Translations under genes and position numbers: made by a program | From: an uncultured Lachnoclostridium sp. | GTDB lineage: Bacteria > Bacillota > Clostridia > Lachnospirales > Lachnospiraceae | DNA: 35,302 bases | Assembly (NCBI GenBank): GCA_946499505.1 | Contig: CAMMSL010000023.1 | Location: 1-35,302, forward strand | Direction of reading: 5' to 3' | The notes under the pieces: generated by a model | What the model was told of the DNA's origin: nothing | Seen by the model: only the letters and a program-made list of their open reading frames with translations | Database searches by the model: none | Shown: piece by piece, positions 7,300 to 23,536 of the stretch | Numbering within the stretch: the first letter of the stretch is position 1 | Layout: the number at the start of each line of letters is the position of its first letter

Positions 7300-7387
7300 T
7301 GCGGAAGTGTCGGAACTGGCAGACGAGCAAGACTAAGGATCTTGTGACATTCGTGTCGTGTGGGTTCAAGTCCCATCTTCCGCATTA
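7300..7387 (+). other. attL: 88-bp att core containing the whole tRNA-Leu
   Basis: Positions 7300-7387 are identical to 23449-23536, and identity ends abruptly on both sides. The dyad CAAGACTAAGGATCTTG in the anticodon arm is the probable core binding and strand-exchange site, as is usual for tRNA-targeting tyrosine integrases. Confidence 0.85.
7301..7384 (+). tRNA. tRNA-Leu (anticodon AAG), left copy
   Basis: The 84-nt gene has acceptor arms GCGGAAG/CTTCCGC, anticodon stem CAAGA/TCTTG around the loop CTAAGGA (anticodon AAG), a long variable arm GACA-TTCG-TGTC (class II tRNA) and T-loop TTCAAGT. The discriminator A is present and CCA is not encoded. Leu follows from the anticodon and long variable arm. 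The gene is also the integration site of the element, and the identical copy is at 23450-23533. Confidence 0.95.
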
Positions 7388-7392
7388 TAAGT

Positions 7393-7430
7393 CCCTATTT
7401 TACTGGGCTTCCGGTAAGATAGGGTTTTTT
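7393..7430 (+). terminator. intrinsic terminator behind left tRNA-Leu
   Basis: CCCTATTTTAC (7393-7403) pairs with GTAAGATAGGG (7414-7424, one G-U), followed by TTTTTT. It lies inside the element and would isolate the integrase from tRNA transcription. Confidence 0.85.
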
Positions 7431-7455
7431 CTTGTCTAAAACATCTTCAATTTCC

Positions 7456-7465
7456 GCGCAAGACT
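7456..7465 (-). promoter_or_regulatory. candidate integrase arm-type site (left)
   Basis: GCGCAAGACT here is the exact inverse complement of AGTCTTGCGC at 23381-23390 and shares GCAAGACT with the tRNA anticodon arm (7327-7334). In the circle the two would flank attP in inverted orientation, as expected of arm sites. Confidence 0.5.
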
Positions 7466-7506
7466 ATCAGACCAAAAATCAAGTAGTCTTACACGGAGGT
7501 ATTATC

Positions 7507-8451
7507 ATGAAGAGACAAGTTATCACTATGCAAAAATCTAAAAATTTATCAATCGATGAAGCGTTTTCCAATTTTATTAAAAAATCAAAAATTCGCAATT
7601 TGTCAGACGAAACATTAAAAACCTATCACAATCACTATAAGGTGTTTTCGGAACTCATAGACAATGCAACTCCTATTGCGGATGTTACATCTGACACATT
7701 GGATGATTTTATCGTCTATCTCCGGGAAAAACGTAAAGTGAACGATGTTACCGTAAACACATATCTGAGGACGCTCCGAGCATTTTTGTACTATTGCATG
7801 GACTGCGGATATTTAAAAGCATTTAAGATAAAAATGCCAAAAGTCGAGAAAAAGATAAAAGAGACATACACGAATGACGAATTGGAACGGCTACTAAAGA
7901 AACCCGATGTTGATAGTTGTGGCTTTGCTGAGTTTAAAACATGGGTATTTGAAAACTATCTGCTTGGCACTGGTAATCGTGTTTCGACCGCTCTAAACGT
8001 CCGTATAAGAGATGTTGACTTTACAGGCGGTACAATTACCCTCCGCAAGACCAAGAGCCGTAAACAGCAGATTATACCGCTCTCAGCCACATTGTCTGAT
8101 ATCTTGTCAGAGTATCTGGCGTATCGTGGCGGCGAGGGTGAAGATTTCCTCTTTTGCAATAACTACGGAGAACAGGCAAGCGTTAGGACATATCAGGATC
8201 TTGTAAGAAAATATAATCGCGTGCGCAATGTCAACAAGACCTCCATCCATGTCTTTCGGCATACGTTTGCTAAAAACTGGATACTTGCAGGCGGTGATGT
8301 TTTCAGATTGCAGAAAATACTCGGACACTCTGACTTAACGGTAACACGGGAGTATGTCAATATGTTTGGACAAGACCTTCAGATGGATTTCGAGAAATTC
8401 AATCCTTTAGATAAAATCTCAAAATCCAAAAAAACGATAATCAGGATGTAG
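7507..8451 (+). CDS. int: tyrosine recombinase/integrase
   Basis: The 314-residue enzyme catalyses site-specific integration and excision at the tRNA-Leu att sites. The N-terminal SAM-like core-binding domain spans about 14-105 and the catalytic domain about 118-290. Catalytic residues are visible: R158 (GTGNRVSTALNV), K183 region (RKTKSRK), H248 and R251 (HVFRHTF), H274 (ILGHSDL) and the nucleophile Y283 (TREYVN). GGAGGT lies 6 nt before the ATG at 7507, which rules out the longer frame from 7432. It adjoins attL, reading away from the tRNA, and is followed 14 nt later by the Ig-like gene, so both may share a transcript. Confidence 0.95.
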   Translation: MKRQVITMQKSKNLSIDEAFSNFIKKSKIRNLSDETLKTYHNHYKVFSELIDNATPIADVTSDTLDDFIVYLREKRKVNDVTVNTYLRTLRAFLYYCMDCGYLKAFKIKMPKVEKKIKETYTNDELERLLKKPDVDSCGFAEFKTWVFENYLLGTGNRVSTALNVRIRDVDFTGGTITLRKTKSRKQQIIPLSATLSDILSEYLAYRGGEGEDFLFCNNYGEQASVRTYQDLVRKYNRVRNVNKTSIHVFRHTFAKNWILAGGDVFRLQKILGHSDLTVTREYVNMFGQDLQMDFEKFNPLDKISKSKKTIIRM

Positions 8452-8465
8452 GAAGGGGTGAAACA

Positions 8466-9563
8466 TTGAACATAGATAATATTACGCAGCGACAGTTTGA
8501 TTTCTCGTTCCGGAGGGAGAAAATAACAATTACAGATTACTATGACTCGTCAATACAGTATGATGTTTTCTTCCGGCGTGATAATCGCGGAACATCGCCG
8601 CAAGGTAAACTCAGATTATTTTATGCTGATGATACGCCTATATGTATCGGTACAATCTTTATACTAGGCAATGCCAATTATCTTGTTATAAGCAAAGAAG
8701 CAGTTGAGGGCGTTGTATATCGGTCTTCGATGGCGGTCAAATGCACCGAACAAATAAGTATCAAGAATACAGATGGCACATATACAGTTGTACCGTTTGC
8801 AATGGACACAGGACGATATGTCACAGCCTCAAATGGTACAATCAGTATCATTGACGGATCGGTGACAATCTATACTGGACTGAATGACACTGTAAAACAG
8901 ATGGATGGAGATTATAACTGCTTTGGCGGCAGATACAGCGTCCAGAATCATCTATATAATGATGGGATTGCTTATATCTATCTGAGCAGAGAGGCGGATA
9001 TGCCAGACGTATATGCTCTCACATATAATGGCGATACCTCAGTTGAACTTGAAACAGGTACATATCAGTTATCCTATACTGCGACCGTTAATAATATACC
9101 TGTGCAAAATCCAACGTTGTCTTATGTATCCGGTAATACTGAGGTTGCAATAGTATCAGACTCAGGATTGCTCACTTTGTTATCAGCCGGTGATACTACA
9201 ATCACGGCTACATGGACGGAGCAAGAGATAACCTGTGAGACAAGCATAACTGTTACGGCACAGACAACATCAGGCACAACATCAATTGAAGGAAAAACTA
9301 ATCTCATCAACGGATTTAGCAGGGAATATACAGGTAAGGTGTTAGATGGTTCGGGTACAGAAGTGCCAGGCATTACAGGTGTATGGACTATCACGGACTG
9401 TACCTTTACAGATGAAATTGAGCAGATTGTAGACGGTAACAAGATAACACTCTCTGTAGACAACAGGAGTTTGATCGGTGATACGTTTACACTTAATTTC
9501 TCTGTACAGGATGAAAATTATACACCGTCCTCGCTTGTAATAACTGTCACTTCACTTTATTAA
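8466..9563 (+). CDS. phage structural protein with Ig-like (Big_2-type) domain
   Basis: The 365-residue protein starts at TTG 8466 behind GGAAGGGGTG. Its N-terminal half (about 1-190, with YDVFFRRDNRGTSPQGK and DYNCFGGRYSVQNHLYNDG) resembles the N-terminal part of head- or connector-associated proteins of Firmicute phages. It is followed by a bacterial Ig-like domain (about 195-270, with VSDSGLLTLLSAGDTTITATW) and a second beta-rich module to the C-terminus. No signal peptide or membrane segment is present. Ig-like domains on virions usually decorate the surface or bind hosts. Its place directly behind the integrase is unusual. In the circle it follows the connector gene, which is the more usual neighbour. 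The exact virion role is inferred. Confidence 0.7.
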   Translation: MNIDNITQRQFDFSFRREKITITDYYDSSIQYDVFFRRDNRGTSPQGKLRLFYADDTPICIGTIFILGNANYLVISKEAVEGVVYRSSMAVKCTEQISIKNTDGTYTVVPFAMDTGRYVTASNGTISIIDGSVTIYTGLNDTVKQMDGDYNCFGGRYSVQNHLYNDGIAYIYLSREADMPDVYALTYNGDTSVELETGTYQLSYTATVNNIPVQNPTLSYVSGNTEVAIVSDSGLLTLLSAGDTTITATWTEQEITCETSITVTAQTTSGTTSIEGKTNLINGFSREYTGKVLDGSGTEVPGITGVWTITDCTFTDEIEQIVDGNKITLSVDNRSLIGDTFTLNFSVQDENYTPSSLVITVTSLY

Positions 9564-9639
9564 AGTAAAATCTTTTGAGGGCAGGATGCAGAACATATTG
9601 TATCTTGTCCTCTGTCTCAAAAAGTTCCCTTTTTAATTT

Positions 9640-10095: not shown

Positions 10096-10141
10096 ATGCT
10101 TACAGAGATGAGAGGAAACCGGTCAATACATTGTCAACAAT

Positions 10142-10312: not shown

Positions 10313-10335
10313 ACATTTTTTTCGCCCACTATATA

Positions 10336-10701: not shown

Positions 10702-10786
10702 GTAATTACACAACAATCTGGGCCGCAAGCAGAGAACTATTTATAGGGCAATGTTACCGGCGGAACAGGGAAAGGAGCACAAATTT

Positions 10787-11281
10787 ATGGAACTTAATGA
10801 AATCACGGGGCTTACAGAGGAACAGATTGAGCAGGTAAAGCGTTATGCACAAGGATGTGAGGATCGCGTCCGGACAGACTACAGCAAGCAGTTAAAGGAT
10901 GTACGTGCGGAACTCGACAAATACAAACCTGCCGAAAAATCTGAAACCGAAAAAGACCTCGAAGCACGTCTCTCTAAAATCGAAGCAAGAGAAAAAGAAC
11001 TTGCTGCTAAAGAGAGACAGATGACAATTTCTACGAAACTGAAAGAAAAAGGGTTGCCCTCCGATTTGGCACAATATCTCAACATTGGTGAGGATATTGA
11101 TAAATCCATCGATGGAGTCAATACGGTACTGGCATCTGTAATCCTGAATAATGGAAACAAGCCGACAACTCACACAACAAATCAAGGAGTGACCAAGGCT
11201 GACTTTCGGAAAATGTCATACGGAGAACGAGCAAAACTTTTTCAGACAAATCCAGAACTTTATAAATTACTGGCTAAATAA
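10787..11281 (+). CDS. phage capsid scaffolding protein (DUF4355-like)
   Basis: The 164-residue, highly charged protein has a long coiled coil (about 15-90, rich in Glu, Lys and Arg) and a short C-terminal domain ending ELYKLLAK, the usual build of scaffolds that guide HK97-fold procapsid assembly and then leave. The start is the ATG at 10787, with AAAGGAG 9 nt upstream. The longer frame from 10751 lacks a ribosome site. It lies just before the capsid gene, with only the small membrane-protein gene between, supporting the call. Confidence 0.75.
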   Translation: MELNEITGLTEEQIEQVKRYAQGCEDRVRTDYSKQLKDVRAELDKYKPAEKSETEKDLEARLSKIEAREKELAAKERQMTISTKLKEKGLPSDLAQYLNIGEDIDKSIDGVNTVLASVILNNGNKPTTHTTNQGVTKADFRKMSYGERAKLFQTNPELYKLLAK

Positions 11282-11295: not shown

Positions 11296-11592
11296 GTGGA
11301 TCTTGCTCAAATGGTTGAACACGCCATTACAACGCTAGGATTTCCCATTGTCTGTGTCGTTTTCCTTGGATGGTTCGTCTGGAAAATCTGGCTACGCCAA
11401 CAGGAACAGAATGAAAAGCGTGAGGAAAAATTATATGCCTGTATCACTGAAGCACAGAGCGTAAACGAGCGATTGATTGAGACAAACTCAGAGTTTATGG
11501 AAGTGCTGACGGACTACAAGACAGATCTTGATGAAATTAAACAAAATGTAACTGAGATAAAGAATACTATTACGAAAGGATTAGGTGAATAA
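11296..11592 (+). CDS. BhlA/UviB-like small membrane protein (possible holin)
   Basis: The 98-residue protein has one N-terminal membrane helix (about 13-33, GFPIVCVVFLGWFVWKIW) followed by a long charged, probably coiled-coil region ending in KNTITKGLGE. This is the layout of BhlA/UviB holin-like proteins. It starts at GTG 11296, 14 nt after the scaffold gene, and its stop lies 1 nt before the capsid start, so it is translated with the morphogenesis genes. No endolysin is found, so a lytic role is uncertain. A membrane anchor in capsid assembly or another function is possible. Confidence 0.65.
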   Translation: MDLAQMVEHAITTLGFPIVCVVFLGWFVWKIWLRQQEQNEKREEKLYACITEAQSVNERLIETNSEFMEVLTDYKTDLDEIKQNVTEIKNTITKGLGE

Positions 11593-11593
11593 T

Positions 11594-12463
11594 ATGGCAA
11601 CAATTAATACAGGACTTATTGTACCTGAGGTTTATTCTCAACTTGTTCGTGAGAAAATTGCAGGTCGTATGCAGGTAGGTCAGTTTTTGAAGAAAATCGA
11701 TGATCTTACAGGTGATGTTGGCGAAACTGTTACAATGCCTGCATGGTCTTATGTCGGCGATGCTAGTGATTGGACTGTTGGAACTGCAATGACAACTAAG
11801 AAACTTGCTCAGACAAAGAAAACGGCAACCATCAAGGCAATCGCCGCTCCGGGAGTCGAAGTTTACGATTATGATAACAAAGTCGCTCTCGGCAATGCAC
11901 TTGATGAGGCGGCAAAGCAGCAGGCAATCTCCATTGCTCGAAAAATTGATATTGATGCAATCAACGCTGCATATGGCACACCGCTTAAACAGGCACTTGC
12001 AACTAAGGATGCTATCACACAGACTGAAATCCTCAGTGCGCTTTCTATTTATGGCGATGAGCGTGATGCGGAGGATTTCTCTCGTGGCGCCATTGTGATG
12101 CACTCTGCATTTGCAGATGATTTATATTCGATGGATCTCTTCACAAGCAGAGAGAGAACGACCGTAGCAGCCGGTTCTGAAAACGGAATTACAAAGAATG
12201 GCGTGATTGGTCAATTTTTAGGAATTGATGTTGTTCTCTCTGATAGACTCTACGATAGTGCGACTTCCGAGCCGTATCTTATGTTTATCAAGAATGATAG
12301 TATCGGTTGGATTCCGAAAGAGGCCCCGTTCGTTGAGACGGAAAGAGATGCATCCAAGAGACTGACAAATATCTATTGCTCCGAGTTTTACGCAATGGCT
12401 CTCGTCCGTGATGATGGCGTTGTGCTTTGCAAAAAGACTCTCCCGACACAGGACGAAGATTAA
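11594..12463 (+). CDS. major capsid protein (HK97 fold, N4-gp56-like family)
   Basis: The 289-residue protein is the probable shell protein. Family features include the opening INTGLIVPEVYSQLVREK, GETVTMPAWSYVGDA with a following lysine-rich strand, the long central helix (EAAKQQAISIARKIDIDAIN), and the C-terminal FLGIDVVLSDRL and ETERDASKRLTNIYCSEFYA. The length matches small phage capsid proteins of this group. I start at ATG 11594, one base after the preceding stop, with AGGATTAGGTG upstream. No head protease gene lies nearby. The scaffold two genes upstream fits a protease-free assembly route. Confidence 0.88.
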   Translation: MATINTGLIVPEVYSQLVREKIAGRMQVGQFLKKIDDLTGDVGETVTMPAWSYVGDASDWTVGTAMTTKKLAQTKKTATIKAIAAPGVEVYDYDNKVALGNALDEAAKQQAISIARKIDIDAINAAYGTPLKQALATKDAITQTEILSALSIYGDERDAEDFSRGAIVMHSAFADDLYSMDLFTSRERTTVAAGSENGITKNGVIGQFLGIDVVLSDRLYDSATSEPYLMFIKNDSIGWIPKEAPFVETERDASKRLTNIYCSEFYAMALVRDDGVVLCKKTLPTQDED

Positions 12464-12526: not shown

Positions 12527-12751
12527 ATGTTATCAGGTGAAAAATTACAGTTTTTGCGAATTACCCATAAAATCACACAGCGACAAATGGCTGAGTGGTG
12601 CGGCGTATCAACTCGATTTATCGGCATGATTGAACATAACGATAGACAACCATCGCCGGAGGTCTACAATGCAATGATAAATTGCATCTACGGCATAGGT
12701 AAGCCATTAAAGAAGAATAAATCAAACAATCAAGAACAAGAATCAGAATAA
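12527..12751 (+). CDS. small XRE-type helix-turn-helix protein
   Basis: The 74-residue protein carries one XRE/Cro HTH (about 6-50: KLQFLRITHKITQRQMAEWC and VSTRFIGMIEHNDRQPSPEVY) and a polar, Lys/Asn-rich tail. GGAAGG lies 7-8 nt before the ATG. Standing directly behind the capsid gene on the same strand, it may regulate late genes or the replication block that follows. Its target is unknown. Confidence 0.8.
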   Translation: MLSGEKLQFLRITHKITQRQMAEWCGVSTRFIGMIEHNDRQPSPEVYNAMINCIYGIGKPLKKNKSNNQEQESE

Positions 12752-12883: not shown

Positions 12884-12953
12884 TGAGACGATGCATGAAT
12901 CATAATGCAGTTTTCACTTCACTTTTCTACCAATGGGATGATGCATTGTCTCA
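12884..12953 (+). promoter_or_regulatory. inverted repeat spanning a translation start region
   Basis: TGAGACGATGCAT (12884-12896) pairs with ATGCATTGTCTCA (12941-12953) with a single G-U. The stem contains the first ATG (12891) of a four-codon frame (MHES) whose stop TAATG overlaps the ATG at 12905. This looks like translational control of the next gene. Confidence 0.5.
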
Positions 12954-13858
12954 TCTTGATGGTAGAAAGATTGAAGGACGAATTAAAGCAAAGAATACCT
13001 CAATGGTACCAAGACACAGAAAACAAATATGGACTCATACTCACGGATGATATTGATTCACTTTTCGGTTGTGCAATCCTGAAAGCACAAATGAACTGGA
13101 ACATTCAAGAAGTCATGTTATTTAATGCAAAGCACAATTCAGAAATATCCATTGACTGGCATGGAGTAGCCGACAACGCCACACATGAAGCAATTGGCGT
13201 TGATTTTGCAAGAGTCAACGGAAAATGTTTTGACAATCATTTGTGTATGTTTAATTCAGACGATACATATAATAATGAAGCAATTAATCTAAATCATATC
13301 TACGGGATCAACAGAAACTCCTATACAAAAAAATACAACTTATCCACGGCATTGTTATTATGGAGTCTTTACGATCTCCCGAAGGACAATTTGCCGGATG
13401 AATTAATGATGTTGTTATTGTGCATCGACAGCAGTTTTTACAGTTTCTTTCACGGCTTTCAACGACAGAATTACAGATGGCTTGTGGATGAGTTGGATTT
13501 GCCAGAATTTTATGAGTGTCAGAAACGTCACACAGAATACGAGTTTATCAAGATCGCAAAAAAATATGGAGTAAAAGAGAAAATATATGTGAAGGATCAT
13601 CACTTACATACAGATATTGACATTGATGGAATCAATGATTTGCTGTTATGGGATACGCCATGTTGGATAGAGTTACCAACCAACAAGTTTTACACAAAGG
13701 ATTTCTACAAGGATATCACAGTGGATATAAAAGGTAATCCACAGAGTATCTATGATATCTGCGATGATCCGTACTGCTATGCCATCACAAGGAAAAATCA
13801 AATCAAATTTTCAGAGAGGATCGATTTGGATGCACTACGACAGCGAGTTAAAAAATAG
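12905..13858 (+). CDS. divergent DHH-phosphoesterase-like protein
   Basis: This is a 317-residue protein if it starts at 12905, or about 299 from the internal ATG at 12959 (MVERLKDELKQR). I do not recognise it securely. It has GLILTDDIDSLFGCAIL, which resembles DHH motif I (two Asp then Ser), and IGVDFA..CFDNHL, which could be motif III with DNH in place of DHH. Later parts are rich in Trp, Tyr and Leu (STALLLWSLYDLP). DHH proteins cleave phosphodiesters in nucleic acids or cyclic dinucleotides, so any activity here is speculative. A second frame from 12895 (MNHNAVFTSLFYQWDDALSH) looks protein-like for ~30 residues, so the true N-terminus may lie across a frameshift. Confidence 0.6.
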   Translation: MQFSLHFSTNGMMHCLILMVERLKDELKQRIPQWYQDTENKYGLILTDDIDSLFGCAILKAQMNWNIQEVMLFNAKHNSEISIDWHGVADNATHEAIGVDFARVNGKCFDNHLCMFNSDDTYNNEAINLNHIYGINRNSYTKKYNLSTALLLWSLYDLPKDNLPDELMMLLLCIDSSFYSFFHGFQRQNYRWLVDELDLPEFYECQKRHTEYEFIKIAKKYGVKEKIYVKDHHLHTDIDIDGINDLLLWDTPCWIELPTNKFYTKDFYKDITVDIKGNPQSIYDICDDPYCYAITRKNQIKFSERIDLDALRQRVKK

Positions 13859-14018
13859 AATAATAATTTATAGCGGACGGATCGCAAACGCACTACTGGA
13901 CAAAGGATATCAAATCGTGCAGGTACGTCCAGACAAGCGTAACAAGATAAAATCAGTTTTTGTGTTCAGGGCCGATGATGGAATTGAGGATGAACTGTGC
14001 ATGATGATTAATTTATAG
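13830..14018 (+). CDS. DUF5659-like small phage protein
   Basis: The 62-residue protein has the DUF5659 pattern IYSGRIANALLDKGYQIV then VRPDKRNKIKSVFVF, seen in many Firmicute phages without known function. It starts at ATG 13830, with AGAGAGGA 9-10 nt upstream, and overlaps the end of the preceding gene by 29 nt. It is the first of two paralogous copies in this element. Confidence 0.7.
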   Translation: MHYDSELKNRIIIYSGRIANALLDKGYQIVQVRPDKRNKIKSVFVFRADDGIEDELCMMINL

Positions 14019-16181: not shown

Positions 16182-16424
16182 ATGATAAACAGAACAAATA
16201 GAACAACGGAGACAGCAAGGTTTGCAGGACTTGAGGATGAATTCCTCTATAAAAATTATCTTGGTATCAAGCAGAGAATTGCAGAGATGTTAGAGGATGA
16301 TTATTTTGACGTGGATAAGGTAAAGTTTACTCTCTGGTATCTGGACGAGGAGCGACATAAATTAGATGAACTGAAAGCACACAGATACGTGGAACGGATG
16401 CAGAAAAAAGAAGGTGAGGACTAA
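16182..16424 (+). CDS. hypothetical protein upstream of terS
   Basis: The 80-residue, charged and probably all-helical protein (FAGLEDEFLYKNYLGIKQRI, LDEERHKLDELKAHRYVERM) has no recognisable family. It starts at ATG 16182, behind GTGAGG, and its stop TAA overlaps the terS start in TAATG, so the two are translationally coupled. Position suggests a packaging accessory or regulator. Confidence 0.65.
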   Translation: MINRTNRTTETARFAGLEDEFLYKNYLGIKQRIAEMLEDDYFDVDKVKFTLWYLDEERHKLDELKAHRYVERMQKKEGED

Positions 16425-16858
16425 TGGCAACTATTACGAAAGATTATAAGACGATAATCCAGAAGATGCAGGAAGTTGCACCGAATTACATTGCGAAATA
16501 TGTAGAGTGGTATCTGACTGATCCAGAGGACAGATGCACATGGGAGGAATTGTGTACCTGTGACCAACAGTTTAAGTCTCGGAGCGGCGGATATAAGACC
16601 GAGGAATTTGCCAAGGAAAACTGGCTGACTCGAGAGGATACTCAGAGAGCAATCCAGATATATATGAAGCACATGAAAACCTACAACACAATGCGGATTT
16701 ACCGGAAGATGTTGGACAAGGCATTGCAGGGAGATGTTAATGCGGCAAAATGGGTTGAGCAATTCCATGAGTCAGATTTCTTTGATGAGTCCACAGATGA
16801 AATTGATGAATTTCTCAACAAGGTAAACATCCCGAAATTGAAAAAGGTCAGGGAATGA
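16424..16858 (+). CDS. terS: terminase small subunit-like protein
   Basis: The 144-residue protein has an N-terminal helical region, a segment with WLTREDTQRAIQIYMKHMK that could be an HTH, and the C-terminal signature KALQGDVNAAKWVEQFHESD followed by an acidic tail, common in small terminase subunits. TerS rings recognise the packaging site and load TerL. It lies 4 nt before terL and shares a TAATG junction with the preceding gene. Family assignment rests on the C-terminal motif and position. Confidence 0.7.
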   Translation: MATITKDYKTIIQKMQEVAPNYIAKYVEWYLTDPEDRCTWEELCTCDQQFKSRSGGYKTEEFAKENWLTREDTQRAIQIYMKHMKTYNTMRIYRKMLDKALQGDVNAAKWVEQFHESDFFDESTDEIDEFLNKVNIPKLKKVRE

Positions 16859-16862
16859 TGTT

Positions 16863-18443
16863 ATGGCAATCAGTAAACAAAATATGAAAAAACTGGAATG
16901 GCTGTTTGCGGATGAAAACAAATGTGACTTTATTCAGAACTTTATCAAGATTGCCGATAAGAACGGTAATATTGTGCCGTTTGTATTGACACATGAGCAA
17001 CGGGAATTGATTGAGGGGCTGGATCATCTCAATATCATCTCTAAGAGCCGACAACTGGGAGTAAGTGTGTGCTGTGCTGCGTTGGCAATCAGAGAATGTA
17101 TAGTTAAGGAACACTCGACCAATGTATTAATATCACACTCTCAGGCAAGTACCAATGCGGTATTTGATAAGTTGAAGCAGATGTTTTATTCATTGCCGGA
17201 GTGGATACGTCCTGATTTGTTGGCTAACAACAGACAGGCACTTACTTTTGCTAATGGCTCATCTATCGTATGCCAGACAGCAGGCAACAAAGAATTGCTC
17301 CGTGGTAATACGGTCACAGGTATCTTACACGCTTCTGAGTTTGCCTTTTGGAAAGATCAGGATAAAGCACTGCAATCAATGATGCAGGCGGTATCATCTT
17401 CATCTACAGTTATTGTGGAGTCAACATCTAATGGATTCAATCGATTTTCAAAAATATATATGGAAGCAAAGAATGGTGAGAGTGCTTTTAAACCATTCTT
17501 TTTCAATTTTATCAATGGACGGACTCTGTTTGAGAGCCAGTATAAGCAAGCAGTGAAGTTGTACAAGGCTCAAAATAATGGGAAGATGCTCACGGAAGAT
17601 GATTATGACGATGAGGAAAAGCGTCTTGCCAAGTTAGGAATGACACCGGATCAGGCAATCTGGCGGCGACAGAAAATATCAACATCATCGCCGGAGGCGT
17701 TTCGTGTGGAGTTCCCTGCAACACCTGAGGAAAGTTTTCTTGCTACTGGCACAAGTGTATTCGACAGTATGCGGGTATCGAAGTTACAACAGGCACTTGT
17801 TACGAAAAAAATTAAGCCTTTGACCAAAAATCAGATTGTGGGAATACCTGCAATCCTGCAAACATATCTAGGCAAATCATTATTAATCTGGAAAATCCCA
17901 CAACACGGAATGAAATATTATATTGGAGTCGATGTGTCGGAAGGACTCGGCGGCAAGCATGACTACTCTACTATGTTTATCATGGACAAGGACGGTCACC
18001 AAGTAGCCGAGTTTCGTAATAACTCCATCAAACCGTATCTGTTTGCGGATATTGTTGACGCAATGGGCCGTTGGTATAACAAAGCATTGCTCACAGTTGA
18101 GAAAGCGTCTGGCGGTCACAGTGTCATCGAACGTCTACGATATGAGAAGCACTATATGAATATGACCAAGTATAAGACCTATGACGAGTTTAAGCGTGTG
18201 ATCTGGAATGTGGGATTTGACACCAATAACAAAACTAAGAGTATTGCTGTTAATGATGCACGGGAATGGTTTGACAAGGGGCTTGTAGATATAAACAGTA
18301 ATAATCTTTTAGAGGAAATGAAAACTTTTGTTGCGGATGATAAGGGTGGCTTCAATGCAGTGTCAGGCAGCCATGATGATTTAATTAGTGCGCTATGGCT
18401 GTGCATACAGGGATATAAACAAAATCTGTGGTATCCATTTTAG
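16863..18443 (+). CDS. terL: terminase large subunit (ATPase-nuclease)
   Basis: The 526-residue DNA-packaging motor has an N-terminal ATPase and a C-terminal RNase H-like nuclease. Visible features: a Walker A-like SKSRQLGVS (about residue 60), the Walker B region GILHASEFAFWKD in which Ser replaces the usual Asp but the catalytic Glu is kept (as in HGSEVAFW-type terminases), a coupling STSNGF, then nuclease acidic residues in IGVDVSEG, TVEKASGG and GSHDDLISALW. The length is typical. With its own TerL the element should not need a helper's packaging motor. Confidence 0.93.
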   Translation: MAISKQNMKKLEWLFADENKCDFIQNFIKIADKNGNIVPFVLTHEQRELIEGLDHLNIISKSRQLGVSVCCAALAIRECIVKEHSTNVLISHSQASTNAVFDKLKQMFYSLPEWIRPDLLANNRQALTFANGSSIVCQTAGNKELLRGNTVTGILHASEFAFWKDQDKALQSMMQAVSSSSTVIVESTSNGFNRFSKIYMEAKNGESAFKPFFFNFINGRTLFESQYKQAVKLYKAQNNGKMLTEDDYDDEEKRLAKLGMTPDQAIWRRQKISTSSPEAFRVEFPATPEESFLATGTSVFDSMRVSKLQQALVTKKIKPLTKNQIVGIPAILQTYLGKSLLIWKIPQHGMKYYIGVDVSEGLGGKHDYSTMFIMDKDGHQVAEFRNNSIKPYLFADIVDAMGRWYNKALLTVEKASGGHSVIERLRYEKHYMNMTKYKTYDEFKRVIWNVGFDTNNKTKSIAVNDAREWFDKGLVDINSNNLLEEMKTFVADDKGGFNAVSGSHDDLISALWLCIQGYKQNLWYPF

Positions 18444-18458: not shown

Positions 18459-19766
18459 ATGAATAAGACAGAAGAATATATATTGAAACAATACAGTGGT
18501 GATCCGCTATGGTTTACCGAAGAGGTGAATCAGGGCAATCATGTCGCAAGGATCGCCAGTGTGATTTCAAATAGAAATTATCTGGCTGGACGGCATAAGG
18601 TGTTACAACGTGAGGACAGCCACTATAAGGGAAAAGAGTTTATTGTAAGGAAAACGATACTGAACTACGCAAAGACAGTTATCAGATTCCATAATACATA
18701 CTTACTTGGCAGACCAACACAGTTATCTTCATCTGATGCAGATACGGTCAAGACATTTAATGAGATTTATAAGATGGCTCATTATGATACTGTGGATTAT
18801 GAGGTGATTGATCGTGTCAATAAGTTTGGGGATGCTTATGAGGTTGTGTACTTTGATGAGGGTATGATTAAGAGCAAGGTGCTTGACAGTTCGTGTTGTT
18901 ATCCTGTTTATGATGATTGCGGTAATTACATTGCATTTATTGAGTACTGGACTGACGCATATACGAATATCAGTTATTATAATGTATATTATCCTGAGTA
19001 CGTGGATCATTGGAGTAATGAAGGCGGCGATCTGTATCTTGTCTCAACCGATACAAGCGTTGGACTTCCGATACATTACCATAATTTCTCGGATGAGGAT
19101 TATAATTTTGGTGTGAGTTTACTGACGGACATTAAACCGATCATGGATGATTTAGAGGATATGATGAGTAAACTCGGTGATGCTATCTATACCAATAGCA
19201 TGAGTGTCATGCCTATTGCTATCGGTCAGAGGATTGAATCCAGTATCCCTGCGGATGCTATGGGATATGTGCTTAATTTGGATAACGGTGATTTTAAATA
19301 TGCGTCTGCGACAATGGATTACAATACCATAAAACTGTATCTGGATAATCTCAAGCAGATGCTAAATGATATTGCCTGTATACCGAGTGTACTGGGCAGC
19401 AGTACCTCGATTGCGAACATATCAGAAATTTCAATGGAAATACTCATGATGATGGCAAACCTTAATGCGGATGAAACAAAGAAGTGGCTGAATATTGGAT
19501 TTGCTAAGAGGTTTGAGAAATTTCAGAAGATACTGGCAATGCAAGGTATTGCGGTGACAACGGATGTATCTGTGATCTATAACGTGTCGGCTCCGATTGC
19601 ATCAAGTGATATGATTGCTAATCTGAAAGCGTTGAAAGAACTTGGAGCGATTTCAACGGAGAGTATCATGGAGAAGAGTGATGTGATTAGTGATGTAGAT
19701 GCGGAGAAGGAACGATTGAGGATTGAGAAAAGCACCGGCGGAGGTGCTGAAAATAAGGGTGAATGA
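18459..19766 (+). CDS. portal protein (SPP1 gp6-like)
   Basis: The 435-residue protein forms the dodecameric DNA gate at one capsid vertex. Family features are the N-terminal YLAGRHKVL, FHNTYLLGRPTQL, the DVNKFGDAYEVVY-like beta segment (residues about 125-145), the DIKPIMDDLEDMMSKLGDAI helix, GSSTSIANISEISMEILMMM and a C-terminal coiled region ending in a Lys/Glu tail. A Shine-Dalgarno GGAAGGAAGG precedes the ATG, 15 nt after terL. The terS-terL-portal order is standard. What follows is not: no minor head protein comes next. Confidence 0.9.
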   Translation: MNKTEEYILKQYSGDPLWFTEEVNQGNHVARIASVISNRNYLAGRHKVLQREDSHYKGKEFIVRKTILNYAKTVIRFHNTYLLGRPTQLSSSDADTVKTFNEIYKMAHYDTVDYEVIDRVNKFGDAYEVVYFDEGMIKSKVLDSSCCYPVYDDCGNYIAFIEYWTDAYTNISYYNVYYPEYVDHWSNEGGDLYLVSTDTSVGLPIHYHNFSDEDYNFGVSLLTDIKPIMDDLEDMMSKLGDAIYTNSMSVMPIAIGQRIESSIPADAMGYVLNLDNGDFKYASATMDYNTIKLYLDNLKQMLNDIACIPSVLGSSTSIANISEISMEILMMMANLNADETKKWLNIGFAKRFEKFQKILAMQGIAVTTDVSVIYNVSAPIASSDMIANLKALKELGAISTESIMEKSDVISDVDAEKERLRIEKSTGGGAENKGE

Positions 19767-20315: not shown

Positions 20316-20351
20316 ACAAAAAATGAGATATCCGGACAGGACACCTCATTT
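20316..20351 (-). terminator. intrinsic terminator of the minus-strand XRE gene
   Basis: On the minus strand AAATGAG..CTCATTT stems (20351-20345 with 20327-20321) lead into TTTTTTG. The XRE stop codon overlaps the upstream arm. Confidence 0.65.
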
Positions 20352-20630
20352 ATCTCTTAACATATTAACAATCTGCATAACAGCACTAATCTCATCATTG
20401 CTTAATCCAGTAACATCTATATTGCGTGTTTCCGTAATACCGAGCAAATAATCTGTTGATACATGAAAGATCCGGGAGAGACTAATCAGTACTTCATAGG
20501 ATGGATACCTGCTACCAGATTCGTAAGAAGAGATTGCACTAACGGCAACACCAAGTAATTCAGCGAGTTGCTGTTGGGTAAGCCTTTTTTCATGTCTTAA
20601 TTCCTTTACTTTATCTCCAAAATTCACCAT
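20346..20630 (-). CDS. XRE-family repressor-like regulator
   Basis: The 94-residue protein has a classical HTH (about 3-60: FGDKVKELRHEKRLTQQQLA, ELLGVAVSAISSYESGSRYP) and a short C-terminal helix (ISAVMQIVNMLRDK). The start is the ATG at 20630, with GAGGG 8 nt upstream; three extra codons to 20639 are less likely. It is the only gene of the element on the minus strand. It diverges from a strong promoter at 20724, so it probably represses the lipoprotein cluster and itself, and may be the element's master regulator. Confidence 0.85.
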   Translation of the reverse strand: MVNFGDKVKELRHEKRLTQQQLAELLGVAVSAISSYESGSRYPSYEVLISLSRIFHVSTDYLLGITETRNIDVTGLSNDEISAVMQIVNMLRDK

Positions 20631-20723
20631 TAGTATCACCCTCTTTCACATATGGTGATGTTACTGTATCAAAAAGAATATCTGCATAGGTGAAAATATA
20701 TACACTAAAACAGAAAATTATTG

Positions 20724-20752
20724 TTGAATTTAGATGTGCAGAATACTATAAT
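20724..20752 (+). promoter_or_regulatory. promoter of the lipoprotein cluster
   Basis: TTGAAT (20724-20729), a 17-bp spacer and TATAAT (20747-20752) precede the lipoprotein ATG by about 35 bp. The 95 bp between this promoter and the XRE start is the likely operator region. Confidence 0.8.
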
Positions 20753-20786
20753 TGAATTATCTAAATTTAACAGGGGGATATTATCA

Positions 20787-21206
20787 ATGAAGAGAAAATT
20801 TCTCAAAGTACTATCTGGCGTGAGTGTATCATTGCTAATAGGCGTAACATTGTGCGGTTGTGAGGATACAGATACTTATGATTCGAATAATGAATATGAG
20901 TCCACGTCTACAAGCAATGATTATTCATCGGGATATGAGGATGACTATGACTATGGATCAACTGATAACTATGATACATACGAAAATGACTATGATTCAT
21001 ATTCGGATGATTATTCAAGTGATACGGAGGATTCCGCCGGAGATGGATATAGTTACAGTGATACAGACCCTTTTTACAAGGCAAATGATCATAATGGAGA
21101 TGGCAAAATAAATGATGAAGAATTTTCTGATGCAATGTCAGATGCTATAGATTATTATTATGATGCGTATGAGCAAATGATGGAGGAAGAAGGAAATGGC
21201 GAATAA
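20787..21206 (+). CDS. acidic lipoprotein with C-terminal EF-hand
   Basis: The 139-residue protein has a basic N-terminus, a hydrophobic stretch and the lipobox TLCGC (Cys about 23), so it should be lipidated on the outer face of the membrane. The middle is a low-complexity Asp/Tyr/Ser/Glu linker. The C-terminus carries a textbook 12-residue EF-hand loop, DHNGDGKINDEE, suggesting Ca2+ binding. AGGGGG lies about 9 nt before the ATG at 20787. It is the first gene of a five-gene cluster of envelope-like proteins under its own promoter. No family function is known to me. Confidence 0.8.
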   Translation: MKRKFLKVLSGVSVSLLIGVTLCGCEDTDTYDSNNEYESTSTSNDYSSGYEDDYDYGSTDNYDTYENDYDSYSDDYSSDTEDSAGDGYSYSDTDPFYKANDHNGDGKINDEEFSDAMSDAIDYYYDAYEQMMEEEGNGE

Positions 21207-21294
21207 CAATAATAATAACGGCGGCGGTATGGGTTTTTGGGGAATGGTTGGTGCAATTTTAGTTGCTCTCTTCATTTTTTCAGTGATTGGCTGA
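21196..21294 (+). CDS. 32-residue single-pass membrane micro-protein
   Basis: ATG 21196 lies 4 nt after GAGGAAGAAGG inside the end of the lipoprotein gene. The product starts MANNNNNNGGGMGFW, then has one hydrophobic helix (GMVGAILVALFIFSVIG). The poly-Asn/Gly head and lone helix resemble small membrane effectors or pore-formers. It overlaps the lipoprotein by 11 nt and ends 1 nt before the next gene, so it is tightly coupled. Confidence 0.65.
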   Translation: MANNNNNNGGGMGFWGMVGAILVALFIFSVIG

Positions 21295-21295
21295 T

Positions 21296-21673
21296 ATGGT
21301 TCGTAAAAACATAATATTGATACTCATAACATTAGTCATATATGCAATCAATCAAAATGTAAAGATGAGTATTGCCAATGATGCTATTCGGTGGTTTATG
21401 ACTTGTTACTTTAATGACATGATAGGCGGTATTACTTTTACCGCCTATTGTTGTATTTTTGTCGAGTTATATAAGGGTTCAATTATAAAACTGTATCAAA
21501 TTGAAGGAATACTTTTTCTGAGTGGTGTATTTTGGGAATATATTACACCCTTGTATAGAAATACTACAAGTGATCCGTGGGATATTGTCGCATATATGTT
21601 TGGAGGATTATTATACTGGGTGATTATAAAGATATGGACGAAGAACGAGAAGAGCGGTTTTGGAAATTCATAA
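21296..21673 (+). CDS. four-helix membrane protein, VanZ-like architecture
   Basis: The 125-residue protein has four membrane segments (about 5-20, 40-58, 70-88, 97-115). The last loop and helix, FWEYITPLYRNTTSDPWD then IVAYMFGGLLYWVI, resemble the Glu-xx-Asp/small-residue pattern of VanZ-like proteins. No enzymatic role is assigned. ATG 21296 follows the micro-protein stop by 1 nt; a TTG at 21287 is an alternative. Third gene of the envelope cluster, whose 3' end overlaps the next gene by 40 nt. Confidence 0.65.
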   Translation: MVRKNIILILITLVIYAINQNVKMSIANDAIRWFMTCYFNDMIGGITFTAYCCIFVELYKGSIIKLYQIEGILFLSGVFWEYITPLYRNTTSDPWDIVAYMFGGLLYWVIIKIWTKNEKSGFGNS

Positions 21674-21870
21674 CAGGTGATGATCTGGACTTCTATGAAG
21701 AATACACCATTCATCTCACGGATGAAGAACAGGAAAAGTTTTTTGAGGAAAATCCAGATTTTATGTGTGATTATCCTGTGAGTCGTGATAAAATGTATCT
21801 ATTGAGAGATGTGGTGTTTCGAGGAATTTTGAGGAGAATCAGAGAGTACGAGGGAGGAAAAAGTCTATGA
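21634..21870 (+). CDS. small acidic hypothetical protein
   Basis: The 78-residue soluble protein MDEEREERFWKFITGDDLDF has a central TDEEQEKFFEENPDFMCDYP and a basic C-terminal helix. I know no family. ATG 21634 lies within the end of the membrane-protein gene, and its stop overlaps the next start in ATGA, so it is translated with its neighbours. It may bind or regulate the membrane proteins. Confidence 0.65.
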   Translation: MDEEREERFWKFITGDDLDFYEEYTIHLTDEEQEKFFEENPDFMCDYPVSRDKMYLLRDVVFRGILRRIREYEGGKSL

Positions 21871-22913
21871 AAAAGTGTCCAAAATGTAACAATTTGTGTG
21901 AAGACAAATTTGATTATTGTTTGACGTGTGGGTATCATTTTACAGGGAATGAAGAAACTATTGAAAATCCTGAAAGTGATAAGACATCAGATAATGAAGA
22001 TATTGAAAACCATGACATTATTGAAAAAGCGACTACTGAGGAAAATGTAGAGTCAGATGAAAATAAAAATATCGACTTTGATGCTCATGCGGAGAAAAAT
22101 GAAGAAAGTCCAGATGTACAAGAAACTGACTCGCCAATAAATCATGAACCTGTAAAGAAGATAAAACGAAATCTTGGTAAACGTATGATAGGAGAAGTCA
22201 TTGGCGGTGTAGTGTTAATAATTGCGTTAATTGTGGCAATTAGTAAAAGCGTACAGGTGACTTCACTTCAAAAACAGTATGATGAAGTTTCACAGGAATT
22301 AGAAGCGGCAAACGAGCAAATTGCTTCTCTTACAGATGATAATGCAGAATTATCACAGGCCAATGATGAATTGACAAGCAAAAATGATGAACTTGAAAAT
22401 GGTGCGGCTAAACAGTTAGTTGATATTAAGAATGCATATGAAGATGGAGATTGGGAAACGGTAATAAGTTTAGCGGATACTTTGCATGAGCAGTATAATG
22501 GCAGTGAAGAGGACAAAGAAGCACAGGAGTTAGCATCTGCAAGTCAGGCTAAGATTGATGAAGCAAATGCAGCCAAAGCCGCAGAAGAAGCAAAAGGTTA
22601 TGAAACAGGAATTACATATGACCAACTTGCACGTACTCCAGACGATTATTATGGAAAAAAAGTAAAATTTTACGGTAAGGTTGTTCAAGTAATTGAGGGC
22701 AGTGGAGATGATGTCCAGATTCGACTTGCTGTAGACGACAATTATGATACTATTCTGTTTGGACAGTATAGCAGTGATATTGTATCATCAAGAGTTTTGG
22801 AGGACGATTATATTACTATATATGGAACGTCTGTAGGTACAATAAGTTATGAGTCTACTATGGGCGGTACGATTACAATACCGGGCGTATATATTGATAA
22901 AATAGATCAATAA
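21867..22913 (+). CDS. zinc-ribbon/TM/coiled-coil/OB-fold membrane protein
   Basis: The 348-residue protein has an N-terminal zinc ribbon (CPKC..CLTC, residues 4-20), an acidic linker (about 30-95), one membrane helix (about 110-132, GGVVLIIALIVAI), a coiled coil (about 133-175) and a C-terminal beta domain (about 248-345, YDQLARTPDDYYGKKVKFYG) typical of OB-fold/tRNA_anti-like modules. The zinc ribbon should be cytoplasmic and the OB domain extracellular. Last gene of the cluster: ATGA overlap with the preceding gene and a terminator after the stop. Its role is unknown; sensing or envelope remodelling is possible. Confidence 0.75.
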   Translation: MKKCPKCNNLCEDKFDYCLTCGYHFTGNEETIENPESDKTSDNEDIENHDIIEKATTEENVESDENKNIDFDAHAEKNEESPDVQETDSPINHEPVKKIKRNLGKRMIGEVIGGVVLIIALIVAISKSVQVTSLQKQYDEVSQELEAANEQIASLTDDNAELSQANDELTSKNDELENGAAKQLVDIKNAYEDGDWETVISLADTLHEQYNGSEEDKEAQELASASQAKIDEANAAKAAEEAKGYETGITYDQLARTPDDYYGKKVKFYGKVVQVIEGSGDDVQIRLAVDDNYDTILFGQYSSDIVSSRVLEDDYITIYGTSVGTISYESTMGGTITIPGVYIDKIDQ

Positions 22914-22920
22914 AACACAT

Positions 22921-22953
22921 AAAGGGATTACGGCAAACACCGTAGTCCTTTTG
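22921..22953 (+). terminator. intrinsic terminator of the envelope cluster
   Basis: AAGGGATTACGG pairs with CCGTAGTCCTTTT around a short loop, ending in a short T-run. It separates the cluster from the connector gene. Confidence 0.8.
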
Positions 22954-22973
22954 TTACGAAAGGGGGGCATACA

Positions 22974-23321
22974 ATGCAGATATTAGACCGATTAAAAATG
23001 GAACTGTCTAACCAAAAGTATTTCCCGGATGAACAATACACTCAATTCCTGACAGAGAACGGGCTGACAGCAACGGCGGAATACAACAAGGAAACCGACC
23101 AGAGGAAGTTACTCTTGACGGTACTGGATATTTTAGAAGCAATCTCCAATGACATTGACATTATGACAAGCGTGACCACAGAGTTTAATACTACAGGTGC
23201 GGCATACAAATATATTGAGCAGAGGATTGCACAGGTTAAGGATAAGATTTCATCCTTACCGGATGAAAATGAGGAAGAAGAATACAGTTGTTTTTCGTTG
23301 ATGTTTACGCACAATGGATGA
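22974..23321 (+). CDS. head-tail connector-like protein
   Basis: The 115-residue helical protein (MQILDRLKMELSNQKYFPDE, LLTVLDILEAISNDIDIM, TGAAYKYIEQRIAQVKDKI) resembles the short head-completion connectors found behind capsid genes in Firmicute phages, which seal the portal and dock tails. GAAAGGGGGG precedes the ATG. It is the last gene before attR. In the circular form it is followed by att, integrase and the Ig-like structural gene, restoring a head-completion neighbourhood. Family recognition is from sequence pattern only. Confidence 0.7.
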   Translation: MQILDRLKMELSNQKYFPDEQYTQFLTENGLTATAEYNKETDQRKLLLTVLDILEAISNDIDIMTSVTTEFNTTGAAYKYIEQRIAQVKDKISSLPDENEEEEYSCFSLMFTHNG

Positions 23322-23380
23322 TAAAATTTATGATTGACAGGTCGGTGATCTGAGGGTAATATAGTGATGTAACAAAAAAG

Positions 23381-23413
23381 AGTCTTGCGCGATAGACTTA
23401 AAAAAGTCTTGCG
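23381..23413 (+). promoter_or_regulatory. candidate integrase arm-type sites (right pair)
   Basis: AGTCTTGCGC (23381-23390) and AGTCTTGCG (23405-23413) are direct repeats 24 bp apart, complementary to GCGCAAGACT near attL (7456-7465). Another CGCAAGACT lies at 20066-20074. They sit 36-68 bp from the att core. Confidence 0.5.
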
Positions 23414-23448
23414 AAGATGATTGGAAACCCTTATAAATAGGGCCTTTT

Positions 23449-23536
23449 TGCGGAAGTGTCGGAACTGGCAGACGAGCAAGACTAAGGATCTTGTGACATT
23501 CGTGTCGTGTGGGTTCAAGTCCCATCTTCCGCATTA
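23449..23536 (+). other. attR: second 88-bp att core
   Basis: Identical to 7300-7387 and containing a complete tRNA-Leu. Because the full gene is duplicated, attP must carry the whole tRNA sequence and not only its 3' part. Confidence 0.85.
23450..23533 (+). tRNA. tRNA-Leu (anticodon AAG), right copy
   Basis: Identical over 84 nt to the copy at 7301-7384, with all arms intact. No clear promoter lies just upstream (it is preceded by the arm-type sites and a weak hairpin with TTTTT), so it may be silent in the integrated state. Confidence 0.9.

Follow-up and report, generated by a model that had tools for sequence, protein, structure and literature searches.

The segment from 7300 to 23536 of the window (the whole 35,302-nucleotide stretch of uncultured Lachnoclostridium contig CAMMSL010000023.1) is an intact integrated element of 16,149 bp, which lies in tRNA-Leu and has identical 88-bp repeats at its ends. 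With a probability of roughly 0.7, it is a member of a family of capsid-forming, tail-borrowing satellites of Clostridia. As the element carries head genes up to the neck and no recognised tail, and has many similar relatives, it probably spreads with the tails of other viruses.

Insertion site and gene content of the element

The exact direct repeat (7300-7387 and 23449-23536) contains a complete tRNA-Leu(aag) gene at either end (7300-7385 and 23449-23534, ARAGORN). Nine loci of congeners (L177-L185) were examined, and in seven of them (L178, L179 and L181-L185) the site was uninterrupted, with a TrpB-like left-flank gene, the tRNA-Leu and the right-flank genes within 2.2-4.3 kb. L177 contained the right flank only and L180 the left flank only; in L184 the tRNA was present in two copies. 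The repeats and the empty sites confirmed that the element of about 16 kb in tRNA-Leu, proposed in an earlier sequence-only reading, is real. Its features are as follows.

7300..7387, +, attL, complete tRNA-Leu(aag) gene (ARAGORN; 88-bp exact repeat)
7507..8451, +, tyrosine integrase (Phage_integrase 8.2e-29; phrog_1 1.8e-43)
8466..9563, +, predicted head-closure/stopper protein with two C-terminal Ig-like domains (AlphaFold2 model)
10751..11281, +, capsid assembly scaffold, Gp46/DUF4355 (Pfam 4.3e-7; phrog_172 8e-14)
11296..11592, +, UviB/BhlA-type holin-like small protein (phrog_2429 6.5e-7; phrog_1625 1.1e-6; phrog_9829 8.9e-12)
11585..12463, +, major capsid protein (MCP), HK97 fold (phrog_544 1.4e-36; PDB 9m66 Gp6 6.2e-35)
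12527..12751, +, small HTH regulator, conserved place after the MCP (HTH_3 1.1e-5)
12905..13858, +, c7, lineage-typical conserved protein of unknown function (alignment; 58/70 elements)
13752..14018, +, c9-like small protein, C-terminal part of the ORF (resemblance to cluster c9 by eye)
14517..14693, +, c9-family small protein (family membership)
14941..16032, +, replication initiator-like protein, Rep19 family (weak phrog_1408 0.033)
16424..16858, +, small terminase subunit, TerS (position and family; adjoins TerL in relatives by alignment)
16863..18443, +, large terminase subunit, TerL (Terminase_6C 2.7e-13; Terminase_6N 6.7e-8)
18459..19766, +, portal, SPP1 Gp6-like (PF05133 5e-51)
20346..20639, -, Cro/CI-type repressor-like HTH protein (HTH_3 4.5e-16; phrog_8 2e-26)
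20721..22913, +, element-specific cargo, four ORFs (blastp, Pfam, PHROG)
22974..23321, +, c6, predicted head-tail adaptor or connector (structure model)
23449..23536, +, attR, complete tRNA-Leu(aag) gene (ARAGORN; 88-bp exact repeat)

Nineteen element ORFs of roughly 74 aa or more were searched against Pfam and PHROGs, overlapping ORFs on the reverse strand being left aside. The integrase, scaffold, MCP, TerL and portal named in the sequence-only reading were each confirmed by profile matches; for the PDB match of the MCP the family profile served as the query. The integrase ORF opens at 7432, and the ATG at 7507 is preceded by GGAGG. TerS and the replication initiator, also named there, have weak profile matches of their own and were retained by position and relatives: the TerS call rests on its place beside TerL and its conservation, and the slot of the Rep protein is occupied in relatives by replication initiators or by a primase-like or helicase-like protein (profile matches).

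The protein previously called connector-like is c6, which is predicted from its structure model to be a head-tail adaptor. Phage necks were singled out for this model by VIA-align only; an hmmsearch of PDB gave no credible match (best E 0.045, a haemagglutinin) and Foldseek against BFVD nothing under 0.001. The Ig-domain protein beside the integrase is predicted to be a head-closure "stopper". Its AlphaFold2 model had a mean pLDDT of 86 and a pTM of 0.48, and the two top-ranking BFVD matches were both annotated "Head closure knob" (E 1.5e-19 and 1.8e-19), with low query TM-scores of 0.41-0.43, an rmsd of about 18 and the matching half of the protein not distinguished. The result list against PDB was filled by Ig domains. 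All 19 stopper family members searched matched phrog_16444 (unknown function), and in Clostridium relatives the family follows the adaptor. With this predicted head-closure protein the head set is fuller than originally stated, and with adaptor and stopper as modelled the virion gene set would stop at the neck.

Tail-tube, tape-measure and tip genes had no credible match in the 19 ORFs, a head maturation protease and an HNH endonuclease had no match, and no endolysin was recognised, in agreement with the claim that tail, protease and endolysin genes are lacking. Nor was a fibre gene recognised in the element. Weak coiled-coil-type spanin matches (holin-like protein, 0.0026; zinc-ribbon-like protein, 0.0006) were regarded as noise, as was a tape-measure match of the scaffold (0.072). 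The earlier picture of lysis held for the endolysin, but the holin-like gene had been overlooked. Two of the PHROGs that it matches, phrog_2429 and phrog_1625, are labelled "bacteriocin production or immunity"; its family is present in 11 of the 70 elements described below, and a similar family, c17, in 20.

In the alignment of c7 the positions D..D and NH were invariant. No match to c7 was found in Pfam or PHROGs, by tblastn among 50,697 phage records, or below E 3.9 in a profile search of PDB. A DHH-type phosphoesterase, suggested by the two motifs, was rejected, as DHH proteins encoded in the own genome gave no match in hhalign; this control comprised three valid ORFs, and a fourth (L089), without the DHH motif, was probably a wrong ORF. 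For the c9-like ORF that overlaps the end of c7 the true start is likely later. The cargo consists of a lipoprotein-like protein of 161 aa that weakly matches an EF-hand (0.001), a 128-aa protein, a 97-aa ORF and a 348-aa zinc-ribbon-like protein; for the three larger proteins blastp found no counterpart among the other loci used for comparison. The cargo ORF at 21867-22913 matched phrog_5319, "outer membrane protein" (5.2e-32).

Relatives of the element

The same TerL and portal families were found in 70 distinct elements including that of the window, mostly from the IMG/VR viral contig collection; TerL matches L021 and L057-L066, all at 32% identity or less, were left out of the gene-content counts. 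Of these elements, 49 were near-complete, and they contained the MCP (48/49), the scaffold (47/49), the adaptor (47/49) and the stopper family (39/49). The recurrence of this set in 70 distinct elements is more than chance. Elements delimited by repeats measured 16,149, 18,519, 19,919, 16,777 (17,370 if a second copy of the tRNA upstream is taken as the starting point), 16,770, 19,766 and 15,455 bp, and three more, of 15,642, 16,607 and 16,334 bp, came from genomes found via c7 in whole-genome draws; the range for those carrying the full set is 15.5-19.9 kb. None of the 28 viral contigs with a TerL of at least 38% identity and none of the 29 found by the MCP exceeded 19,433 bp, many being fragments. 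The compact set that the sequence-only reading had proposed to look for thus recurs.

In Clostridium elements c6 and the stopper are adjacent or nearly so, and in Lachnospiraceae the att site lies between them, so that the order is identical on a circle. Close pairs of relatives showed purifying selection on the head genes, which argues against random decay: dN/dS was mostly 0.05-0.25, and 0.05-0.24 for TerL, portal, TerS and MCP among the pairs listed. The ORFs of the window element are close to the family median length. Together with the clean att repeats, these values bear out the earlier judgement that its genes are intact; decay of the window element was rejected on the same evidence, the empty site and the recurrence in 70 elements. 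One relative, L053, is decayed, with broken MCP and TerL.

A full tail module in relatives, which would have marked this element as a deletion, was not seen alongside this TerL and portal in the part of the accessory genes that was examined. The accessory scan used 94 proteins standing for 215 (at least 120 aa, plus strand, 83 loci including some contigs fetched twice), and PHROG matches were evaluated for 25 of the 101 families matched. Accessory clusters between portal and adaptor were small, the largest having 5 members in the 83 loci; c14, a small gene of unknown function, recurs near portal and adaptor in 8 loci. Fibre-like proteins were present in some relatives, namely c15 in 7 loci (one member with a weak tail-protein match) and c35 in 3 loci (in one of which an S74 chaperone domain was scored). 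Two circular relatives of Herbinix type, of 17,986 and 18,198 bp, contain the c35 protein and had no integrase-profile match.

Among genomes of the host family TerL was found in 2 of 299, and c7 was found in 6 of 398 genomes of the phylum and 6 of 391 of the class, the own genome being counted each time. Carriers do occur in Lachnospiraceae, the setting first suggested, but the range is wider and takes in Clostridium, Dethiosulfatibacter and several further families of the class or phylum. The portal had no tblastn match in the 50,697 phage records at 1e-5. A plasmid form was considered and rejected; in the 8 records concerned the TerL matches were distant, with at most 29.4% identity in those that covered most of the query.

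As a satellite-only marker c7 failed, since it also occurs, together with a c16-like protein, in three contigs of 20-28 kb (L124, L134 and L138), none of which has the portal of this family. By eye these were read as HK97-type siphophages (TerL, portal, capsid), and L124 and L138 have a 962-aa tape-measure-like protein, also assigned by eye, and a tail-endopeptidase protein. L196, in which c7, an integrase, tRNA-Pro, a tail-endopeptidase and an amidase occur along with transposases read by eye, looks like a prophage remnant from a decayed siphophage. In L201, c7 and an integrase are present, but a head gene was not recognised. L192 has c7 and profile matches for portal, scaffold and MCP, but its TerL is of phrog_38 and it carries a phrog_115 minor head protein; its gene order is phage-like, three more ORFs downstream had no match, and it was excluded from the 70 elements. 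The head module is also present in a 38-kb contig (L152/L205), which was scanned in part.

Comparison with known satellites and phages

Phi29-like small podoviruses have a phage-type DNA polymerase, a protein primer and tail genes, none of which found a match in the 19 ORFs. Classical PICIs and SaPIs and EfCIV583 resemble the element in size, integrase and replication gene; in the portions of the sources available they have no phage structural modules and take their capsids from a helper (PMC6092414, PMC3675006). The element does have structural genes, and so lies outside the classical Gram-positive type, defined by their absence in the portion of PMC6092414 available.

Capsid-forming PICIs (cf-PICIs) are described, in the accessible part of PMC10803314, as having their own capsid and packaging genes, no tail and about 14 kb on average; Clostridia are not among the host groups named in that part. 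The definition in the accessible part of PMC10690885 comprises an own MCP, portal, connectors, TerS, TerL, head-maturation protease and HNH endonuclease. The element has the first five, the connectors by structure models and TerS by position and family. In contrast to the published descriptions, it gave no protease, HNH or AlpA match and its capsid module is of the scaffold type; regulation of AlpA/Stl type found no AlpA match in the 19 ORFs and a single minus-strand Cro/CI-type HTH protein. Because protease and HNH were not found, the element was not placed among the cf-PICIs. A satellite of that type, as first proposed, therefore stands as to its own head and packaging genes, the lack of a recognised tail and the compact relatives, but not as to its filing.

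The nearest precedent in gene set is MulchRoom, a Streptomyces satellite (OQ784832, 14,787 bp) with TerS-TerL-portal-scaffold-MCP-adaptor-stopper, an integrase and no tail genes. According to the part of PMC10690885 consulted, its particles carry tails of helper length; its genome has terminal repeats of 1.6 kb, and a primase was not recognised in it. Long direct terminal repeats on a linear genome are a feature of the Mulch/Flayer satellites; of the present element, the window contains the integrated form. Both have an integrase, head genes and neck genes (predicted from models in the window element) and no recognised tail. The MCP family of MulchRoom aligned with that of the window (hhalign 89.3%; hmmsearch 5.9e-7 in a 19-protein set), while its TerL, adaptor and stopper gave no alignment, and hmmsearch found no credible match for its portal, scaffold or TerS. 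MiniFlayer (OQ357865, 17,449 bp) is a satellite phage that enters attached to the helper virion and has its own capsid and packaging set, a fibre gene and no integrase; the same portion of PMC10690885 reports that it traded the integrase for the fibre. The circular Herbinix-type relatives resemble it in gene set. MiniFlayer is virulent and not integrated; the window element encodes an integrase, a fibre was not recognised in it, and the TerL of MiniFlayer gave only a faint signal with the window family (2.3e-4, 19-protein set). A homologous structural module shared with the Mulch/Flayer satellites was thus absent, the MCP being clear for MulchRoom and TerL faint for MiniFlayer.

Proposed tail borrowing and its alternatives

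The satellite reading draws on the head-to-neck set, the compact size, the recurrence in 70 elements, purifying selection and the MulchRoom precedent; on this reading the element would work like cf-PICIs and MulchRoom. Infection by a helper phage, or its induction, would relieve the repressor, the integrase would excise the element at the duplicated tRNA-Leu, and the Rep protein would replicate it. Its scaffold and MCP would build a head that its terminase fills with element DNA, and the adaptor and the Ig-decorated stopper would close this head and offer a docking face to the long tail of the helper. For lysis the holin-like protein would act along with a lysin of the helper or the host, and the hybrid particle would bring the element into a new host. 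We infer the dependence on a helper tail from these genes. The own genome had no match to PhageMin_Tail, Sipho_tail or TerL_ATPase, the three families searched, and of the 12 carrier genomes, the own genome among them, only 4 matched each of the two tail families.

Some observations sit less easily with a satellite. The fibre-like c15 and c35 might form a private adsorption device in the relatives that have them; the low TM-scores of the stopper, c14 near portal and adaptor, L192 and the 38-kb contig L152/L205 also count on this side, as do the missing tail and terminase matches in the own genome and the small number of carrier genomes that matched a tail family.

An autonomous mini-phage is unlikely, yet it is the strongest of the alternatives. 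Its adaptor and Ig stopper, joined in some relatives by c15 or c35, would form a podovirus-like nozzle, a very short unrecognised tail that needs no helper. The fibre-like genes fit this idea, the stopper Ig domains resemble those of phage capsid and tail proteins, and most carriers tested matched neither tail family. Against it, the window element has neither a recognised fibre gene nor a recognised endolysin, the clusters between portal and adaptor are small even with c14, and the best named matches of the stopper model are head-closure knobs of siphophages. Still less probable is a head-only device that is transferred capsid-protected on lysis or enters attached to a helper virion. The circular relatives seem to have made the same trade as MiniFlayer, but the window element has an integrase and lacks a recognised fibre, and an adaptor and a stopper would serve no purpose if there were no tail or similar partner to join. 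An inert siphophage derivative that lost its tail and lysis module, for which the phage-type head and neck proteins, the decayed L053 and L196 and the phage-like order of related head genes in L192 could be cited, is very improbable in view of the set common to 70 elements, the near-median ORFs, the low dN/dS, the clean att repeats with an empty site and the portal without a match in the phage records.

Beyond the tail-borrowing satellite itself, we tentatively consider, at slightly less than even odds, a Clostridia-wide lineage of head-and-neck-only satellites apart from the PICIs. It would have a fixed circular order, two interchangeable capsid proteins (phrog_544-type and SU10-type) and a branch in which the integrase was lost and an S74 fibre and a DPBB-like RNA polymerase were acquired, a second occurrence, in Clostridia, of the transition from MulchRoom to MiniFlayer.

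No description of this Clostridia family was recognised in a literature search of titles and abstract openings; the founding paper on cf-PICIs, which was beyond the reach of that search, may contain one. Such elements sit among the phage contigs in IMG/VR. If the satellite reading is true, a large satellite family is added for Clostridia, and the strategy of an own head with a borrowed tail evolved once more, from another set of capsid, portal and neck proteins. As a docking interface that can be put to the test, the conserved stopper may decide which helper tails, and hence which hosts, an element can reach.

Insertion site and gene content of the window element

The window is contig C23 of a 3.08-Mb genome in 84 contigs, and the element under study occupies positions 7300–23536. 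A complete tRNA-Leu(aag) gene lies at each end, inside one of two copies of an 88-bp exact repeat that are 16,149 bp apart. The GC content, taken in 1-kb steps, was 0.35–0.42 within the element and 0.43–0.53 in the flanks, except at 24001–25000 (0.38). At seven of the nine congener loci examined (L178, L179 and L181–L185), a gene that we take to be TrpB-like (flank genes were named by inspection of their sequence), the tRNA-Leu and the right-flank genes were found inside a single locus of 2.2–4.3 kb; the other two contained the right flank only (L177) or the left flank only (L180). The tRNA-Leu repeats, the GC shift and the uninterrupted congener sites mark the element as cleanly inserted into a tRNA gene site. 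Upstream of the tRNA, at about 6800–7090, an intergenic repeat was observed with copies on C28, C33 and other contigs of the same genome.

Features of the window element referred to in the text
starts at 7300: tRNA-Leu(aag), complete gene, left end
8466–9563: Ig-domain protein (predicted stopper)
12905–13858: conserved protein c7
22974–23321: predicted head-tail adaptor (c6)
starts at 23449: tRNA-Leu(aag), complete gene, right end

The Pfam and PHROG scans covered 20 ORFs, of which 19 lie in the element and one beyond it on the right. The sequence-only reading had listed an integrase, a scaffold, a major capsid protein (MCP), the large terminase subunit (TerL) and a portal, and all five gave clear matches, the MCP being HK97-type and the portal SPP1-type. 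Its replication initiator and small terminase subunit (TerS) had no clear profile match of their own and are putative assignments from position and family context. It had also described tail tube, tape measure, baseplate, receptor-binding, head protease and endolysin genes as missing, and no credible match to these, to HNH or to AlpA was obtained among the 20 ORFs. Weak coiled-coil-type matches to spanins (0.0006–0.0071) and a tape measure (0.072) were rejected as noise. The Ig-domain protein matched phrog_341 (major tail protein, 5.5e-5) and phrog_215 (structural protein with Ig domain, 5.2e-5), both within its Ig part. The start of the MCP overlaps a small protein, presumably of the UviB/BhlA type, that matched phrog_2429 and phrog_1625 ('involved in bacteriocin production or immunity'), and weakly a holin.

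Relatives and their shared gene set

The TerL search was positive in 2 of 299 family genomes, including the own genome, and yielded 16 genome contigs and 38 viral contigs. Of the latter, 28 had at least 38% identity and none exceeded 19,433 bp; the remaining ten (identity at most 32%, contigs of 4–221 kb) were left out of further analysis. The MCP search gave 29 viral loci, every contig being at most 19,433 bp, and the c7 search gave 59, of which 53 were on contigs below 20 kb. Since many viral contigs are fragments, short length is by itself not proof. The largest contig with this family's head module (38,018 bp; L152/L205/L206) was reached via c7, its MCP having escaped the MCP scan; it carries large cargo including a 633-aa protein, and no tail gene was noticed in the part scanned.

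Named carriers of the TerL included Konateibacter massiliensis, Roseburia porci, Anaerostipes sp. MSJ-23, Dethiosulfatibacter aminovorans, Clostridium acetireducens, C. carboxidivorans, C. guangxiense and C. muellerianum. The check for relatives with the compact gene set, proposed from the sequence alone, found them: repeat-delimited copies span 15,455–19,919 bp and sit in tRNA-Leu, tRNA-Lys, tRNA-Phe and other sites. For the C. carboxidivorans and C. muellerianum elements, the search for flanking repeats gave nothing above 17 bp. In class and phylum genome draws, c7 occurred in ten other genomes (11 regions): L193, L198 and L200 had the full gene set and were repeat-delimited (15,642, 16,607 and 16,334 bp), L191, L194 and L195 had most of it, L197 and L199 were cut by the end of the stretch, and L192, L196 and L201 differed from the family plan. 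L192 combines c7 and profile matches to portal, scaffold and MCP with another TerL (phrog_38) and a phrog_115 minor head protein; its gene order is phage-like, and this locus is a possible link between the family and ordinary phages.

After merging copies with TerL at least 98% alike and requiring a TerL of at least 400 aa plus a portal, 103 loci gave 70 distinct elements, including the window. An integrase plus c6 or stopper was present in 49, among which MCP was found in 48, scaffold in 47, c6 in 47, c7 in 45 and the stopper family in 39. The Clostridium-type order is integrase, (cargo), scaffold, MCP, HTH, c7, replication gene, TerS, TerL, portal, (cargo), adaptor and stopper. In Lachnospiraceae-type elements the integrase is followed by the stopper, placing the att site between adaptor and stopper, and on the excised circle the two orders are identical. 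In a few members the integrase is displaced, as in L050, where it follows the portal. Different elements have an initiator, a primase-like or a helicase-like protein as replication gene, and a second capsid family (SU10_MCP, 1.6e-82) occurs in 31 of the 70. The c7 protein, present in 58 of the 70, shows invariant positions (D..D and NH) and matched no database entry; it was also seen on three contigs resembling tailed siphophages (L124, L134 and L138).

The window proteins are close to the family medians in length, which bears out the earlier statement that the genes present are intact. Among close pairs of relatives, the window being too distant to be included, dN/dS (NG86; up to 8 pairs listed per gene, some sharing twice-fetched sequence) was 0.08–0.18 for TerL, 0.05–0.16 for portal, 0.06–0.16 for TerS, 0.07–0.24 for both MCP and c7, 0.05–0.39 for c6, 0.26–0.42 for stopper (3 pairs) and 0.12–0.39 for scaffold, plus one scaffold pair at 0.90 involving the broken L053. 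In L016 (4382–5300) and L027 (4517–5420) the capsid gene is split by a frame break, near residues 90 and 51; as the codons differ, these are probably separate errors or mutations and not a programmed shift.

Search for tail genes and a circular branch

From 215 accessory proteins of the relatives, 94 representatives were scanned with PHROGs; 101 families matched, and no tail family was among the 25 most matched. One representative, c35, matched tail-fibre families. The loci with TerL and portal held 18 non-core ORFs of at least 550 aa, duplicates included and several located outside elements. The profile scan, covering part of the 18, recognised no tape measure; c35, a phrog_8308 protein of C. 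carboxidivorans and a transposase were matched, and the 737-aa protein of L015/L139 had no Pfam match.

Two relatives appear as circles, L073 (Herbinix MAG contig; 18,085 bp with a 99-bp terminal overlap, 17,986-bp circle) and L106 (IMG/VR contig; 18,325 bp with a 127-bp overlap, 18,198-bp circle), with aligned blocks at 71–90% nucleotide identity. Besides the head set and c16, each encodes a c35-type protein (583–585 aa), for which an S74 domain was scored in L029 (same contig as L073). Neither matched the integrase profile built for this analysis. The c16-type proteins (L029/L073, L024, L015, L040, L041 and L031:1429–4566) have D-x-D-[SG]-D motifs, DCDGD in C. carboxidivorans, and the two scanned matched phrog_8308, a family of unknown function; single-chain double-psi-barrel RNA polymerases (YonO/QDE-1) have a catalytic loop that these motifs may resemble. 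A cargo protein of L024 (13769–14515) matched the SeqA C-terminal domain (3.2e-6). Upstream of one element, L207 (26,000–38,000 of a 55,897-bp contig) contains ORFs of 549 and 1428 aa, a holin-like gene of the c17 family and an ORF named amidase-like by eye, possibly another phage-like element adjoining the satellite-type one.

Proposed source of the tail and class of the element

The particle of the window element would consist of a self-made head and a tail from elsewhere, which fits the gene anatomy. PMC10690885 gives an experimental precedent for this in the Streptomyces satellite MulchRoom (OQ784832), and describes the satellite phage MiniFlayer (OQ357865) as attaching to its helper. L073 and L106, with a fibre-like protein and no integrase-profile match, parallel MiniFlayer, which has a fibre and no integrase. 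The main rival reading is a self-sufficient short-tailed mini-phage, and its case is stronger in those relatives that carry fibres than in the window element.

The own genome had no match to the three tail or terminase families searched. This was by itself not counted against a satellite because, according to PMC11389934, resident prophages need not be helpers and some genomes with hitchers have no possible helper.

Read from its genes, the window element probably works like a capsid-forming PICI. As protease and HNH were looked for in it and not found, it is not filed in that class; the part of the sequence-only reading that stands is the capsid-forming satellite kind. The element is real, its parts are ordinary and the whole is unusual, and it would represent a variant of that kind.
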